Source: Flavobacteriaceae bacterium
GTDB lineage: Bacteria; Bacteroidota; Bacteroidia; Flavobacteriales; Flavobacteriaceae
DNA: 37,253 nucleotides
Reading direction: 5' to 3'
NCBI GenBank assembly: GCA_017856205.1
Contig: JAFMFL010000008.1
Span: forward strand, 1 to 37,253
Below, in pieces: positions 24,171-31,813 of the stretch. How positions within the stretch are numbered: position 1 is the first letter of the stretch; each line of letters starts with the position of its first letter. The translations under genes and the position numbers were made by a program. The notes beneath the pieces are model-generated. The model did no database searches, was not told the DNA's origin, and saw only the letters and a list, made by a program, of their open reading frames with translations.

Positions 24171-24199
24171 TTGTATCCTCGTGAAATGTGGTATATTTG
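24171..24199 (+). promoter_or_regulatory. Promoter of the SUF operon (TTG -33, TATATTTG -7)
   Basis: TTG at 24171-24173 is followed after 18 bases by TATATTTG at 24192-24199. The sufA ATG lies 27 bases beyond, leaving a short untranslated leader. No obvious IscR- or Fur-like palindrome is seen beside it. Confidence 0.6.
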
Positions 24200-24226
24200 T
24201 ACTTTGGAATTAATCCAAATAAGGCT

Positions 24227-24556
24227 ATGATTAAAGTTTCTCCAGAGGCTCGAGACCAAGTGGTGCAGATGATGCAACAGGATGGCGTTAACACGCAGTC
24301 GCACTTTGTGCGCGTGGGTGTCAAAAGCGGCGGATGCTCAGGCTTGTCTTACGAGCTCACTTTTGATGAAGCGCTTAGTGATAACGATAAAGTTTTTGAG
24401 GACAATGACGTGCGCATTGTAGTTGATAAAAAAAGCTTTTTATATCTTGTAGGAACTACCCTCGAATATTCGGGAGGATTAAACGGCAAAGGATTTGTAT
24501 TTAACAATCCGAATGCCAACAGAACGTGTGGGTGCGGCGAAAGTTTTTCGCTTTAA
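24227..24556 (+). CDS. sufA: A-type Fe-S carrier, HesB/IscA/SufA family
   Basis: Carries assembled Fe-S clusters to target enzymes. The start at MIKVSPEARDQVVQMM gives 109 aa, the normal size; the longer track start begins within the promoter. The three conserved cluster-binding cysteines are visible: one in GGCSGLSYEL and two in the C-terminal CGCGESF. FNNPNANRTCGCG is typical of the family. It is the first gene of the SUF operon and ends nine bases before sufB. Confidence 0.93.
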   Translation: MIKVSPEARDQVVQMMQQDGVNTQSHFVRVGVKSGGCSGLSYELTFDEALSDNDKVFEDNDVRIVVDKKSFLYLVGTTLEYSGGLNGKGFVFNNPNANRTCGCGESFSL

Positions 24557-24565
24557 AAAATTGCT

Positions 24566-26011
24566 ATGGCATACACAGAAGAAGAATTAAAAAAAGAACT
24601 CGAAACCAAAGAGTACGAATACGGTTTTTACACCGATATTGAGTCGGATACGTTTCCTGTGGGATTAAACGAAGACGTGATTCGAGCTATTTCGGCACGC
24701 AAAAACGAGCCGCAATGGATGCTCAAATGGCGGTTGGAAGCCTATGAAAAATTCCTTCAAATGGAAGAGCCCGACTGGGCAAACGTAAACTATCCTAAAC
24801 CCAATTTGCAAGAAATCGCCTATTACTCTGCACCAAAGACAAAAGCCAAATACGACAGTTTGGACGAAGTAGATCCCGAACTGCTACAAACTTTTGAGAA
24901 ACTAGGCATTTCACTAGAAGAACAAAAACGATTGGCGGGCGTAGCGGTAGATATTGTGATGGACTCCGTATCGGTAGCCACCACATTTAAAGATACGTTG
25001 GCAGAAAAAGGCATTATTTTCTGTTCCATTTCGGAAGCCATTCAAGAACATCCCGAATTGGTACAAAAATACATTGGCACCGTAATTCCCCGAACTGATA
25101 ATTATTACGCTGCGCTCAATTCTGCTGTTTTCTCTGATGGTTCATTTTGCTACATCCCCAAAGGGGTGCATTGTCCTATGGAGCTTTCTACCTATTTCCG
25201 CATCAATCAAGCAGGGACTGGGCAATTTGAACGCACACTTGTCATTGCAGATGAAGGTAGTTATGTAAGTTATTTGGAAGGCTGTACGGCACCTGCCAGA
25301 GACGAAAACCAACTACACGCAGCTGTGGTAGAACTCATTGCGCTTGACGATGCTGAAATCAAATATTCTACCGTACAAAATTGGTTTCCAGGAGATAAAG
25401 ACGGTAATGGTGGTGTATTTAATTTTGTGACCAAACGTGGGATTTGTCACGAGCGTTCCAAAATTTCATGGACACAAGTGGAAACAGGCTCAGCGGTGAC
25501 ATGGAAATATCCGTCATGTATTTTGAAAGGTAACGATAGCATTGGTGAATTCTATTCCATTGCGCTTACCAACAATTACCAACAAGCGGATACGGGTACC
25601 AAAATGATTCATTTGGGCAAACGCACCAAAAGCACCATCATTTCTAAAGGGATTTCTGCTGGACACTCCCAAAACAGCTACCGCGGATTGGTAAAAGTGG
25701 GGGCAAATGCCAAAAATTCACGGAATTTTTCGCAGTGCGATTCGCTTCTTATGGGGAATAAATGTGGGGCGCATACTTTTCCGTACATTGAAGCCAAAAG
25801 TAAAACCGCCAAAATAGAACACGAAGCCACCACCAGTAAAATTGGAGAAGACCAAATTTTCTACTGTAACCAACGTGGCATTGATACCGAAAAAGCCATT
25901 GCCCTTATTGTAAATGGTTTTAGCAAAGAAGTATTGAATAAACTACCAATGGAGTTTGCTGTGGAAGCGCAAAAACTACTCGAAATTTCACTCGAAGGCT
26001 CTGTTGGATAA
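24566..26011 (+). CDS. sufB: Fe-S cluster assembly scaffold SufB
   Basis: Scaffold subunit of the SufBC2D complex on which clusters are built from cysteine-derived sulfur. The 481-aa sequence carries the family's core: PEWMLKWR-like [75 protein letters not shown] and the C-terminal [26 protein letters not shown], which holds the conserved cysteine used in assembly. It lies between sufA and a small lipoprotein gene, and is separated from sufC by the latter. Confidence 0.97.
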
Positions 26012-26021
26012 ATCCTAAATC

Positions 26022-26375
26022 ATGAGAACATTATTTTTAATTTTACTTATAGCTTTTGCTACTGCTTGTACGCAATCGTCCAAAAAAACAGATACAAATC
26101 CACAGTTTTACGGTGAGTTTTTATACCTGGCAGATGCCGCTGTGCTAAACACAGGCACGGAGATTTATGGCGTCATTATTGATGAAAAGATGCATGAGTT
26201 ACACGACTTATGTAGCCCACTAAAACGCGATGAATTCGATATGATTGCGGTTTATGTCAAAGGAAAAGTAGAAAATAAAAATCCTGACGAAGAAGGTTGG
26301 GACAAACGCATTAAAATAACATCGATAGATTCACTTGTAAATCCTACCGATAATTCCATTCTCAAACCCAATTAA
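26022..26375 (+). CDS. Small hypothetical lipoprotein within the SUF operon
   Basis: The product is 117 aa with an N-terminal lipoprotein signal (MRTLFLILLIAFATAC, lipid-bearing Cys16). The mature part (FYGEFLYLADAAVLNTGTEIYG, IAVYVKGKVENKN) is small and beta-rich and might be an OB-like fold, but I do not recognise a named family. It sits ten bases after sufB and three bases before sufC, so it is co-transcribed with cytosolic Fe-S assembly genes although the product should be exported to the envelope. Its role is unknown. Confidence 0.8.
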   Translation: MRTLFLILLIAFATACTQSSKKTDTNPQFYGEFLYLADAAVLNTGTEIYGVIIDEKMHELHDLCSPLKRDEFDMIAVYVKGKVENKNPDEEGWDKRIKITSIDSLVNPTDNSILKPN

Positions 26376-26378
26376 CTT

Positions 26379-27125
26379 ATGCTAAGCATAGACAATTTAC
26401 ATGCCGGTTGCGAAGGCAAAACCATCCTTCAGGGGATTAACTTAGACGTGAAACCTGGTGAAGTACACGCCATTATGGGGCCTAACGGTTCGGGTAAAAG
26501 TACCCTTTCAACAGTAATTGCCGGACATGAAGAATACGATATTTCACAAGGAAGTATTTTGTTTGACGGGGAAGATATTGCCGAACTTAGCGCAGACGAA
26601 CGTGCACACAAAGGCATCTTTTTGTCGTTTCAATACCCTGTGGAAATTCCTGGCGTTTCGGTAACTAATTTTATCAAAACAGCTATCAATCAAACTCGAA
26701 AAGCGCAAGGGCTTGATGACATGCCTGCCAACGAAATGCTAAAGAAAATCCGTGAAAAAGCGGCACTTTTAGAAATCGATTCACGGTTTTTGTCCCGCTC
26801 ACTCAACGAAGGGTTTTCGGGGGGTGAAAAAAAACGCAACGAAATTTTTCAAATGGCAATGCTTGAACCCAAACTTGCCATTTTGGACGAAACGGATTCG
26901 GGGCTTGATATTGATGCGCTACGCATTGTGGCAAATGGCGTAAACAAACTCAAAGGCAAAGACAACGCCATTGTGGTTATTACGCACTATCAGCGTTTAT
27001 TGGATTATATTGTTCCTGACTTCGTACATGTATTGCACGAGGGCAGAATTGTAAAATCGGGAACTAAGGAATTGGCTTTAGAGCTTGAAGAAAAAGGCTA
27101 CGACTGGATAAAGCAAGGTGCATAA
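26379..27125 (+). CDS. sufC: Fe-S cluster assembly ATPase SufC
   Basis: ABC-type ATPase that powers conformational change in the SufBCD scaffold. All ABC motifs are visible: Walker [11 protein letters not shown]-loop [12 protein letters not shown], signature [14 protein letters not shown], Walker [14 protein letters not shown] and the switch His in [13 protein letters not shown]. Length of 248 aa is typical, and it has no membrane domain partner, as expected for SufC. Its stop overlaps the sufD ATG region by one base. Confidence 0.97.
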
Positions 27126-28441
27126 TGGATTTAAAAGAAACCTTATTGTCTTCCTATTTGGCGTTTGACGCTCAAGATGGTCCGCAGCGCAAACTACAAG
27201 ATCAGCGTGCGGCTGCCATTGAGGTGTTTGAACAGCAAGGGTTTCCAACCAATAAACAAGAGGATTGGAAATATACTTCCTTGCGAAATCTTACGAAAAA
27301 CCTGTTTTCGGTGTTTCCTAAAGAGGAAGTAAACTTAACGATTGAAGACATAAAGCCTTACATTTTACAAGACGTTGACACCTATAAAATTGTGTTTGTA
27401 GATGGTGTTTACAACGCTTATTTGTCTGAAACAACCCACGAAGGTGTGGACATTTGTTTGCTTTCTGCCGCCTTAACCAAGCGCAAATATGCCCCTGTAA
27501 TCAAAAAATATTTTAACCAAATTGCTGAAAAAGAAGAATCGCTTACGGCACTGAACACAGCCTTTACTAAAGAAGGCGCATACATTTATGTGCCCGAAGG
27601 AAAAGTGGTAGAAAAACCAGTCCAAATTATTCATTTTGCCACTGACAAAAATCCAAATTTGTTGCTGCAACCACGCAACCTGATTGTGTTGGAAAAAAAT
27701 GCTGAAGTGCAAATCGTGGAGCGCCATCAAAGTTTGACAAATGGTGCTGCGTTTACCAATGTGGTTACCGAAATTTTTACGGAACAAAACGCCCAATTGG
27801 ATTACTACAAAATTCAAAACGATCATACGGAAGCATCGCTGATTGATAGCACCTATATTTCGCAGCAAAAACACAGTCATGCCAAAGTCCATACGTTTTC
27901 CTTTGGCGGCAAGCTCACGCGCAACAACCTAAATTTCTACCACAAAGCTCCTGAAATCAATTCCACCATGAAGGGCATCACGCTTATTGAAGGAAAGCAA
28001 TTTGTGGATCATCATACGCTTGTGCATCACGCCCACCCCAACAGCAAAAGTCATCAAGACTACAAAGGTATTTTTGCCGAAAATGCCACAGGAGTTTTTA
28101 ATGGAAAAATTATTGTAGAAAAAGAGGCGCAAAAGACCAATGCGTTCCAACAAAACAACAACATTTTGATGGACGATAAGGCAAGTATTAACACCAAACC
28201 ACAACTTGAGATTTTTGCAGACGACGTGAAATGTAGCCACGGTTGTACGATTGGTCAATTGGATGAGGATGCACTCTTCTACCTCCAAACACGTGGTATT
28301 CCCAAAAAGGAAGCACGCGGATTGCTTACCTATGCCTTTGCAAACAATGTGCTGCAAAGTGTCCAAATTGATTCTGTAAAAAAGCGTATCAACAAATTGA
28401 TAGCTAACAAATTGGGTGTAAATATTGGATTTGATGTTTGA
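27125..28441 (+). CDS. sufD: Fe-S cluster assembly protein SufD
   Basis: Partner of SufB in the scaffold complex, needed for iron entry and clusters. The 438-aa protein shows the N-terminal FPTNKQEDWKYTSLRNL, the beta-helix core (HTLVHHAHPNSKSHQDYKGIF) and the C-terminal DDVKCSHGCTIGQLDEDALFYLQTRGIPKKEARGLLTYAF, which is highly characteristic. It overlaps the end of sufC by one base and the start of sufS by eight bases, consistent with translational coupling. Confidence 0.96.
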   Translation: MDLKETLLSSYLAFDAQDGPQRKLQDQRAAAIEVFEQQGFPTNKQEDWKYTSLRNLTKNLFSVFPKEEVNLTIEDIKPYILQDVDTYKIVFVDGVYNAYLSETTHEGVDICLLSAALTKRKYAPVIKKYFNQIAEKEESLTALNTAFTKEGAYIYVPEGKVVEKPVQIIHFATDKNPNLLLQPRNLIVLEKNAEVQIVERHQSLTNGAAFTNVVTEIFTEQNAQLDYYKIQNDHTEASLIDSTYISQQKHSHAKVHTFSFGGKLTRNNLNFYHKAPEINSTMKGITLIEGKQFVDHHTLVHHAHPNSKSHQDYKGIFAENATGVFNGKIIVEKEAQKTNAFQQNNNILMDDKASINTKPQLEIFADDVKCSHGCTIGQLDEDALFYLQTRGIPKKEARGLLTYAFANNVLQSVQIDSVKKRINKLIANKLGVNIGFDV

Positions 28442-29660
28442 GACTTCGCTTGATTTAGCGCAAATTCGAAACGACTTTCCCATTTTGCATCGTGAGGTAA
28501 ACGGTCAACCGTTGGTGTATTTGGATAATGCAGCAACCTCGCAAACACCTCTTCCTGTAATCAACGCCATAAGCGATTATTACAAACACACCAACGCCAA
28601 CATTCATAGAGGCGTTCACGCATTAAGCCAAGAGGCAACAGATCAATTTGAAGCGGCAAGACAAAAAATTCAAAAGCATTTTAATGCGGCAAAAGCCCAT
28701 GAAATTATATTGACTTCTGGGACAACGCATGCCATCAATTTGGTAGCAAACGGATTTGCTTCGCTGCTTAAGCAAGGAGACGAACTTATCGTATCTGCCT
28801 TAGAACATCACGCCAATATTGTGCCCTGGCAAATGCTTTGTGAGCGCACGGGGGCAACGCTCAACGTTATTCCGATGACGGACGAAGGAACGCTTGACAT
28901 AGAAGCCTTTGATGCTTTGGTAAATTCCAAAACCAAAGTGGTGTTTGTAAATCATGTTTCTAACGCACTTGGCATTATCAACCCCATAGAACACATTATT
29001 GAAAAAACGCACGCGGTAGGAGCTGCCGTACTTATAGACGGCGCACAAGCAACGCCGCATTTGGTTCCCGATGTGCAAGCCCTAGATGCAGATTTTTATA
29101 CCACCTCTGCGCATAAAATTTGCGGTCCAACAGGAATTGGTATGCTTTATGGAAAGGAGGAATGGTTGCGAAAGCTTCCCCCTTATCAAGGTGGTGGTGA
29201 AATGATAGACCAAGTAACTTTTGAAAAAACAACTTATGCCGATTTGCCACATAAGTTTGAAGCGGGCACGCCAAACATTGCAGGTGGTGTTGGTTTTGGT
29301 ACAGCTATAGATTATATGAATAGCATTGGATTTGACGCCATTGCAGCCCATGAAAACAATTTGCTTCAACATGCCACAGATAAGCTAAAGCAAATTGATG
29401 GCTTGCGTATTTATGGCGATGTGTCAAATAAGGTTGCTGTTATTTCATTTAATGTTGACGGCCTGCATCCTTACGACATTGGCACATTGTTAGATAAAAT
29501 GGGCATTGCCGTGCGCACAGGGCATCATTGTTGCCAACCGATTATGGATTTTTACCAAATTCCAGGAACGGTGCGGGCATCGTTTGCCTTTTACAATACC
29601 CACGAAGAAGTAGAACGATTTGTAACTGGCGTTGAAAAAGCAGTTAGTATGTTGCGTTAA
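28434..29660 (+). CDS. sufS: Cysteine desulfurase SufS
   Basis: PLP enzyme that takes sulfur from cysteine for cluster building, giving alanine and an enzyme persulfide. The ATG at 28434 (MFETSLD, 408 aa) lies inside the end of sufD; the track start is a TTG. Visible are YLDNAATSQTP, ALEHHANIVPWQ, the PLP-binding lysine in TTSAHKICGPTGIG, GGGEMIDQVTFEKTTYADLPHKFEAGTPNI and the catalytic cysteine region AVRTGHHCCQPIM. It belongs to the class II SufS/CsdA type, matched to the SufE that follows after 16 bases. Confidence 0.97.
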   Translation: MFETSLDLAQIRNDFPILHREVNGQPLVYLDNAATSQTPLPVINAISDYYKHTNANIHRGVHALSQEATDQFEAARQKIQKHFNAAKAHEIILTSGTTHAINLVANGFASLLKQGDELIVSALEHHANIVPWQMLCERTGATLNVIPMTDEGTLDIEAFDALVNSKTKVVFVNHVSNALGIINPIEHIIEKTHAVGAAVLIDGAQATPHLVPDVQALDADFYTTSAHKICGPTGIGMLYGKEEWLRKLPPYQGGGEMIDQVTFEKTTYADLPHKFEAGTPNIAGGVGFGTAIDYMNSIGFDAIAAHENNLLQHATDKLKQIDGLRIYGDVSNKVAVISFNVDGLHPYDIGTLLDKMGIAVRTGHHCCQPIMDFYQIPGTVRASFAFYNTHEEVERFVTGVEKAVSMLR

Positions 29661-29676
29661 TATGTATCTTTAACCT

Positions 29677-30102
29677 ATGAGTATAGCAGCACAACAAGAA
29701 GAAATTGTATCAGAGTTTGCCCTATTTGACGATTGGATGCAACGCTACGAATACATGATTGAATTGGGAAAATCCTTGCCACTCATTGCGCCCGAGTACA
29801 AAACTGACGATCACATTATCAAAGGGTGTCAAAGTAAAGTTTGGGTACACGCCGAACTTGAAGATAACAAAATTGTGTTTACTGCTGATAGCGATGCCAT
29901 TATTACTAAAGGCATTATTGCCATTCTCATTCGTGTGTTTTCAAATCAACATCCCAAAGATATTTTGGCAGCCGATACGACTTTTATTGACGAAATTGGA
30001 CTTAAAGAACACCTTTCGCCAACTCGTGCAAATGGGTTGGTTTCTATGATTAAGCAACTTAAAATGTACGCCATAGCGTACCAAACGCAACTCACATCAT
30101 GA
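29677..30102 (+). CDS. sufE: Cysteine desulfuration protein SufE
   Basis: Accepts the persulfide from SufS and passes it to SufB. The acceptor cysteine is Cys51 in HIIKGCQSKVWV, the same position as in E. coli SufE. The helical start (FALFDDWMQRYEYMIELGKSLP) and the C-terminal LSPTRANGLVSMIKQLK also match. Length of 141 aa is normal. The stop overlaps the sufT start (ATGATG) by four bases, so the two are likely coupled in translation. Confidence 0.96.
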   Translation: MSIAAQQEEIVSEFALFDDWMQRYEYMIELGKSLPLIAPEYKTDDHIIKGCQSKVWVHAELEDNKIVFTADSDAIITKGIIAILIRVFSNQHPKDILAADTTFIDEIGLKEHLSPTRANGLVSMIKQLKMYAIAYQTQLTS

Positions 30103-30413
30103 TGGATACTGCTGCACTTGGAGAAAAAATCGTTAAGGTTTTAAAAACCATTTATGACCCTGAAATTCCTGTAGATATTTACGAATTGGGGCTCATTTAC
30201 GACGTGTTTGTTAATGAAGACAACGACGTAAAAATATTGATGACGCTTACCACACCCAATTGCCCTGTTGCGGAAAGTCTTCCACAAGAAGTAAAGGAGA
30301 AAGTGCGCTCTTTGGACGAGGTTAAAGAAGTAGAATTGGAACTTACATTCGACCCCCCGTGGACGCGCGATTTGATGAGCGATGAAGCCAAACTTGAACT
30401 CGGGTTTTTGTAA
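30099..30413 (+). CDS. sufT: SufT / MIP18-family (DUF59) protein
   Basis: Small 104-aa protein of the DUF59/MIP18 family that takes part in Fe-S protein maturation. The core motifs are YDPEIPVDIYELGLIYDV, TLTTPNCPVAESLPQEV with the conserved cysteine, and FDPPWTRDLMSDEAKLELGF. It overlaps sufE at its start and DUF2480 at its end by one base, so it belongs to the operon. A second ATG follows the first, so the true start may be one codon later. Confidence 0.93.
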   Translation: MMDTAALGEKIVKVLKTIYDPEIPVDIYELGLIYDVFVNEDNDVKILMTLTTPNCPVAESLPQEVKEKVRSLDEVKEVELELTFDPPWTRDLMSDEAKLELGFL

Positions 30414-30925
30414 TGGCAAAAGAAATTGTCAATCGTGTGGCAAACAGTGCCCTTCAAGTAATTGACTTGGAGGAATTTTACCCTGAAGGACCTCGCACAT
30501 TGCTTTCCATTACTGATTTTTTGGATGAGGGCGTAGTGTTACGTGAACAATCGTTTAGAGAACGTTTGGAAAACCATAATTGGACAACTTATAAAGGTCA
30601 TTTTGTAGCGGTGTATTGCCCAGAAGGTGTACTGGTGCCACAATGGGCTACGCTACTTTTGGTGCGCTATTTGCAGCCTGTAACCAAAACTGTTATAGTA
30701 GGGACCATTGACGATTTGGAACGCTATCTATTCACTGAAAAATTAGCTGTTTTTGATACCACGCCATACCAAAATGGACTAGTAATCATAAAGGGCTGTG
30801 CCAACAAGGCCGTTCCGCAACAAGCTATGGGCATATTGGCGGCAAAATTAATTCCTGTGGTGCGAAAATTATCTTACGGCGAAGCCTGTTCTTCTGTACC
30901 TTTGTATTCGAAATCTAAAAAGTAG
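30413..30925 (+). CDS. DUF2480 family protein
   Basis: A 170-aa cytosolic protein of the DUF2480 family, which is largely restricted to Bacteroidota and has no known function. Characteristic stretches are IVNRVANSALQVIDLEEFYP, DFLDEGVVLREQSFRERL, PEGVLVPQWATLLLVRYL and VPQQAMGILAAKLIPVVRKLSYGEACS. No catalytic motif or membrane segment is visible; the cysteines in VYCPEG, KGCANK and GEACSSVP could bind a metal but this is a guess. It is within the SUF operon after sufT, which hints at a link to Fe-S handling. Confidence 0.9.
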   Translation: MAKEIVNRVANSALQVIDLEEFYPEGPRTLLSITDFLDEGVVLREQSFRERLENHNWTTYKGHFVAVYCPEGVLVPQWATLLLVRYLQPVTKTVIVGTIDDLERYLFTEKLAVFDTTPYQNGLVIIKGCANKAVPQQAMGILAAKLIPVVRKLSYGEACSSVPLYSKSKK

Positions 30926-30928
30926 TCC

Positions 30929-31813
30929 ATGAAAAAAAGCATTGCGCTTTGTTTTATCCTTATAAATGCCATGCTTTATGCCCAAACCGACTCCGTGCAA
31001 ACCCCAGAAACAGATTGGAAAAAGGGTGGTGTAGCCAAACTTCTTTTTAATCAAACGGCATTTAGCGAATGGGCATCGGGTGGGCAAAATAGTATTTCGT
31101 TGAGTTTTCATGCCGATTACGATCTTAACTATAGCAAAAACGGATGGAATTGGGACACCAAATTTTTAGGTGATTTTGGGCTGACCAAACTCAGTGGCAC
31201 CAAGTTTTTACGCAAAACCAATGACCGCTTTGACTTGCAATCTTTTTTAGGCAAAAAATTTAGCACTACATGGAGCTATTCTACCGTATTTGGGCTAAAA
31301 ACACAGTTTGCACGTGGCTACATTTACGGCGAAGATACAGAGGGCAACGAAACCCGAACCCTTAGAACTCATTTTTTCTCCCCTGTTTACATTCAGTTGG
31401 GGGTTGGTTTGTATTGGAAAAAGTCCAAAGATTTGTGGGTAAACATTGCCCCTTTTACCCAACGACTAACCTTAGTAAGCCGAAAGTTTACAATGGATTT
31501 GCCCGAGGGCAAAGAATATTTTGGGGTGCGTAAAGGGGATAACCATCGCTTTGAATTGGGTGCGTCTGTAAATGCATTTTACAAGTTTTCCCCCATGGAA
31601 AATATGACCCTTGAACAACGTCTTGGGTTGTATTCTGACTATTTGGATAAGGCAGAAAATGTGGATATAGACTACCAAATTGCTGCCGAACTACAAGTAA
31701 ATGAATATGTATCTACCAACCTAATTCTTCAGTTGGTTTATGATGACAATGCGGTGCAGCGCCTACAGGTTCGCGAAGTATTTGGCGTGGGAGTACGAAT
31801 GGCATTAAAGTAG
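30929..31813 (+). CDS. DUF3078 exported protein
   Basis: A predicted exported protein of 294 aa. A signal peptide (MKKSIALCFILINAMLYAQ) is followed by the family's W..GG...L.FNQ..FS.W..GG pattern (WKKGGVAKLLFNQTAFSEWASGGQNS). The remainder is alternating and aromatic-rich, consistent with an outer-membrane beta-barrel; LGVGLYWKKSKDLWVNIAPFTQRLTL and EVFGVGVRMALK fit that. Function is unknown. It begins three bases after DUF2480, so may ride on the SUF transcript. A truncated paralogue follows it 100 bases downstream. Confidence 0.88.
   Translation: MKKSIALCFILINAMLYAQTDSVQTPETDWKKGGVAKLLFNQTAFSEWASGGQNSISLSFHADYDLNYSKNGWNWDTKFLGDFGLTKLSGTKFLRKTNDRFDLQSFLGKKFSTTWSYSTVFGLKTQFARGYIYGEDTEGNETRTLRTHFFSPVYIQLGVGLYWKKSKDLWVNIAPFTQRLTLVSRKFTMDLPEGKEYFGVRKGDNHRFELGASVNAFYKFSPMENMTLEQRLGLYSDYLDKAENVDIDYQIAAELQVNEYVSTNLILQLVYDDNAVQRLQVREVFGVGVRMALK

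Follow-up and report, generated by a model that had tools for sequence, protein, structure and literature searches.

The suf operon of the window (the whole 37,253-nt stretch of DNA that was analysed) contains, between sufB and sufC, a gene for a small lipoprotein with an NlpE_C-type domain. Conservation at this site across the Flavobacteriaceae confirmed that the gene belongs stably to the suf operon and is not a chance insertion.

The lipoprotein gene within the suf operon

Features of the locus are collected in Table 1. The lipoprotein reading frame starts with ATG and is separated by 10 nt from the sufB stop and by 3 nt from sufC; its coordinates, the signal peptide and the lipobox (FATAC, Cys16) agree with the initial annotation, which had placed a 117-aa lipoprotein at this position. 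The lipobox Cys, whose lipidation is predicted, was present in 56/56 distinct orthologues with an assignable start, the starts having been picked to yield a lipobox wherever possible; an additional ORF (L041) has a lipobox and no ATG start. A surface-export signal was also examined: directly after the Cys, an acidic residue is lacking in the window copy, and K-N-D is found in the majority of orthologues from outside the genus. The flanking genes were identified using Pfam as encoding SufA-type, SufB, SufC, SufD, SufS, SufE and SufT/DUF59 proteins, and no match to an RNA element was found in the suf leader or the gap using Rfam.

Table 1. Positions of genes and control elements at the suf locus of the window
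Feature	Position	Strand	Details
Probable Bacteroidota-type suf promoter	24171..24199	+	TTG 24171-24173, 18-nt spacer, TATATTTG at 24192-24199
Palindrome TTTGGA-N5-TCCAAA, probable suf operator	24203..24219	.	Sequence TTTGGAATTAATCCAAA
sufA-type Fe-S carrier	24230..24556	+	PF01521; ORF listed from 24188 GTG, ATG in 24228-24230 region used
sufB	24566..26011	+	PF01458/PF19295
suf-linked lipoprotein, 117 aa	26022..26375	+	Signal peptide 1-15, Cys16 (predicted lipidation), linker to ~27, NlpE_C-type OB domain ~28-105
sufC	26379..27125	+	PF00005 (ABC)
sufD	27125..28441	+	PF01458
sufS	28440..29660	+	PF00266
sufE	29677..30102	+	PF02657
sufT / DUF59 Fe-S assembly protein	30099..30413	+	PF01883
DUF2480 protein	30413..30925	+	PF10652; overlaps sufT stop; also suf-linked in other genera
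DUF3078 protein, Sec-type signal peptide	30929..31813	+	PF11276; 3-nt gap after DUF2480; second exported product of co-directional run

Upstream of sufA, a TAnnTTTG box was found in all compared loci, and the TTG-18 nt-TAnnTTTG arrangement there is one that we take to be the Bacteroidota promoter type. Gaps of 10 and 3 nt are too short to contain a promoter of the lipoprotein's own. The protein would therefore be produced along with SufBCDSE, with the sufA promoter as the most likely origin of the transcript, in line with the earlier proposal that it is under the same control as Fe-S assembly. The E. coli suf operon (sufABCDSE) likewise places Fe-S assembly genes under stress control; to our knowledge, it carries no lipoprotein.

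The TAnnTTTG box is followed by the palindrome TTTGGA-N5-TCCAAA, the exact form of which occurs once per genome in four genus genomes, at the suf promoter (position checked by coordinates in the window, and in the other genomes by contig and position adjoining suf matches). It was present in 7/8 of the genus upstream regions compared, variants of it lie at the corresponding position in some further genera, and sites with ≤1 mismatch numbered 3 in the window vs 0.24 expected. The palindrome is probably an operon-specific operator of suf. Its single occurrence in each genome, at suf, does not support its identification as a Fur box. The genus genomes have a single Rrf2-family regulator, which in the window's genome is L098 (G000:C67); it has clustered cysteines, adjoins sulfate-assimilation genes and is no more than a candidate for the suf regulator.

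The initial annotation had described the operon as otherwise wholly cytosolic, which holds for sufA to sufT but not beyond, where the co-directional run continues with genes for a DUF2480 protein and an exported DUF3078 protein; the suf operon may thus end with a second envelope protein. A partnership between the lipoprotein and this putative outer-membrane protein would fit the export of both from the same strand run and the sufT-DUF2480-DUF3078 order, which was kept in several other genera, but it is very unlikely, DUF3078 having been recovered near suf in only 5/8 genomes tested.

Conservation and selection at the sufB-sufC junction

For the family survey, one genome per genus was sampled (201 genomes), and matches with E < 1e-20 in a profile search were counted as strong homologues. 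These were found in 109/201 Flavobacteriaceae genera, each with a single strong match and no second one elsewhere in the genome. Formosa maritima and Salinimicrobium terrae are among the species that carry the gene. The lipoprotein gene lies beside sufB and/or sufC on the same strand in 109/109 of the gene-bearing genera (107/107 of those checkable among the matches listed, the remaining two settled by reading the DNA). In genomes without it, sufB and sufC are spaced by 13–122 nt in 33/42 cases among the matches listed with both genes. About half of the genera lack the lipoprotein, so Suf assembly as such does not require it. Within the window's genus, the gene lies at the sufB-sufC site in 15/17 genomes; the two genomes without it are also without sufC and therefore look like assembly gaps (partial assemblies). 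The 15 relatives found in genome contigs all adjoin suf genes, several of them in the same assemblies as the genus set. Where the initial annotation had allowed for a chance insertion absent from this site in all close relatives, the gene was thus found to be kept there, both across genera and within the genus.

No homologue was found outside the Flavobacteriaceae in order- and phylum-wide draws, in which sampling was modest and many of the listed genomes belong to the Flavobacteriaceae. No earlier report of the linkage between suf and the lipoprotein was found in the literature searched, which is not proof of absence.

Within the genus, the dN/dS of the lipoprotein was 0.15 for the whole protein and 0.11 for the mature part, compared with 0.02 for sufB and 0.03 for sufC, using only the closer pairs (28/105), as many pairs are near saturation at synonymous sites. 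The lipoprotein evolves faster than its neighbors yet is clearly constrained, and it is under purifying selection. Its protein distances correlated with those of sufB (r 0.70, Mantel p 0.0005) and sufC (r 0.82), and outside the genus with r 0.42 and r 0.69, respectively, which is consistent with descent of the lipoprotein together with the suf operon. The gene has also been retained in a reduced genome of roughly 1.4–1.7 Mb.

The same junction holds other genes. A ~290-aa lipoprotein with a metallo-beta-lactamase fold, related to AHL lactonases, was found in 24 genera; its gene lies in the sufB-sufC interval in 22 of the 24 (L066-L075 among them), and seven of these 22 also have the NlpE_C lipoprotein there. 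Judged by position and family, this lactonase would be of the MomL type. One or both envelope proteins are encoded at the junction in 124/201 genera, and genera with the NlpE_C lipoprotein have the MomL-type gene somewhat less often than those lacking it (Fisher p = 0.048). In Muricauda olearia, momL lies between sufB and sufC and is co-transcribed with suf; an iron chelator raised the suf genes ~2-fold, and under iron shortage or peroxide indole increased both momL and suf further, in a report in which the word "lipoprotein" does not occur (PMC5484670). The suf linkage of MomL-type genes is wider than this single published case. Both MomL and the NlpE_C lipoprotein are exported proteins encoded between sufB and sufC; unlike the latter, the lactonase is a metallo-beta-lactamase-fold enzyme of ~290 aa, unrelated in sequence, whose position in suf had already been published.

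Genes of the 23S-rRNA-intervening-sequence type (IVP, four-helix-bundle) were found between sufB and sufC in two genera; therefore, the junction also accepts unrelated inserts. Genes of this type were observed inside suf operons at L064, L065 and L013 (2077-2549), in the sufB-sufC or sufA-sufB interval, the L065 copy having been checked with Pfam.

A passenger, which was among the options of the initial annotation, would occupy a junction that tolerates inserts and have no link to Fe-S assembly. The MomL-type genes (22 genera) and 23S-rRNA-IVP-type genes (two genera) at the same junction favor such a reading, but it is made highly improbable by the exclusive linkage to sufB and sufC with no strong second copy elsewhere, by purifying selection and co-divergence with the suf genes, and by retention in the reduced genome. 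A mobile or chance insert was rejected on the grounds of suf linkage and selection. The further proposal that the junction is a dedicated place for envelope proteins in a two-sided Fe-S stress response, with the NlpE_C lipoprotein as the envelope reporter of iron/Fe-S status, is unlikely.

Domain identity and fold

The initial annotation had left the domain unnamed. Its assignment to the NlpE_C type was made from a Pfam scan of the orthologues and a fold search with a model of the window protein; the window copy alone matched no Pfam or NCBIfam family. NlpE_C (PF17185) was matched by 26/38 orthologues at E ≤ 0.01 (best 4.4e-8) and the NCBIfam NlpE model by 18/38, and among 40 relatives the sole NlpE_C match above the curated cut-off was the lipoprotein orthologue in G022 (29.2 bits vs a gathering cut-off of 22). 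The AlphaFold2 model has the order b-b-b-a-b-b with a core pLDDT of 91–96, and its top three PDB matches in Foldseek were E. coli NlpE (2z4i/2z4h, probability 1.00), with modest E-values (2.4e-3 to 5.6e-3) and a TM-score of 0.56. A sequence-only PDB search and direct hhalign against the single E. coli NlpE were weak, one alignment having only 16 columns; alignment with NlpE gave the common motif G-x-F/Y-x-Y-x-A-D-A-A. Based on the model, the mature lipoprotein is predicted to be a single OB-fold domain of the NlpE_C type.

The OB-fold domain, the motif and the lipoprotein anchor are shared with E. coli NlpE/CutF (PF04170 + PF17185; PDB 2z4h, 2z4i). Unlike NlpE/CutF, the suf-linked lipoprotein has no N-terminal lipocalin-like signalling domain, CXXC or C-domain disulfide cysteines, is encoded in the suf operon and, in the searches made, is confined to the Flavobacteriaceae. 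With the N-terminal domain (PF04170) absent, the mature protein of ~100 aa comprises the OB domain only. Because it lacks both the N-domain and the C-domain disulfide cysteines, the window protein is an NlpE_C-domain lipoprotein and not an NlpE sensor. A split NlpE with a separate N-domain partner was considered and rejected, as the presence of the lipoprotein is not associated with that of N-domain proteins (18/109 vs 15/92 genera, Fisher p = 1.0) and no PF04170 gene was found in the window's genome (83% complete).

Apart from the lipidated residue, no cysteine is present in 40/56 orthologues. Members of the window's genus have an additional Cys (residue 64) that is not a feature of the wider family, in which one other sequence has an extra Cys. 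As no Cys pair or His is conserved family-wide across the orthologues, neither a thiol redox switch nor a metal site of the Cys/His kind is likely from the sequences. A thiol redox sensor was rejected for want of a family-wide Cys.

These features bear on two roles raised in the initial annotation, a reporter of iron or redox status at the envelope and an aid to iron uptake. As an envelope sensor, the lipoprotein would inform a membrane signalling protein about the state of iron, redox or lipoprotein trafficking, in the way that NlpE signals to CpxA. The NlpE_C homology and, by analogy, co-expression with a stress operon would suit this role, as would the link between the disulfide of the E. 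coli NlpE C-terminal domain and sensing of DsbA-dependent oxidation (PMC6593411); however, the absence of the NlpE N-domain, which alone suffices for Cpx signalling (PMC6538781), the lack of further cysteines in most orthologues and the failure of lipoprotein presence to track separate N-domain proteins leave a sensor unlikely.

In metal handling, the lipoprotein would bind iron, a siderophore, haem or another metal and aid uptake or storage upon Suf induction. The lipoprotein may plausibly share its expression with an iron-responsive operon (PMC5484670), the iron-regulated genes of Riemerella also include SUF genes (PMC5609570), and acidic residues are conserved (Asp38, Asp54, Asp73). Such a role is nevertheless quite unlikely: no His or Cys is conserved family-wide, no TonB receptor or transporter gene lies within the operon, there is no similarity to known metal binders, and the lipoprotein sequence has no feature pointing to iron uptake.

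Proposed role and significance

We give about an even chance to the reading of the lipoprotein as an envelope accessory that is produced along with the Suf machinery and acts as an adaptor or ligand binder, not as a thiol redox switch. By analogy with momL, output of the lipoprotein would rise under conditions that call for more of the Suf machinery (iron shortage, peroxide). The protein would be anchored in the envelope, probably in the outer membrane, and its OB domain would bind a partner there, either a protein of the envelope or a small ligand, with the conserved Tyr49, Lys68, Asp73 and Gly92-Trp93 as possible contacts; its sequence points to no particular partner or ligand. The lipoprotein would then serve as an envelope-side accessory of the Fe-S/iron-stress regulon.

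Among the genera sampled from this abundant marine family, more than half have an NlpE_C-type envelope lipoprotein tied to their core operon for Fe-S assembly. The lipoprotein and momL together suggest that cytosolic Fe-S stress is coupled with an envelope or extracellular answer, and a single small gene is now available for testing this coupling of Fe-S stress and the envelope.
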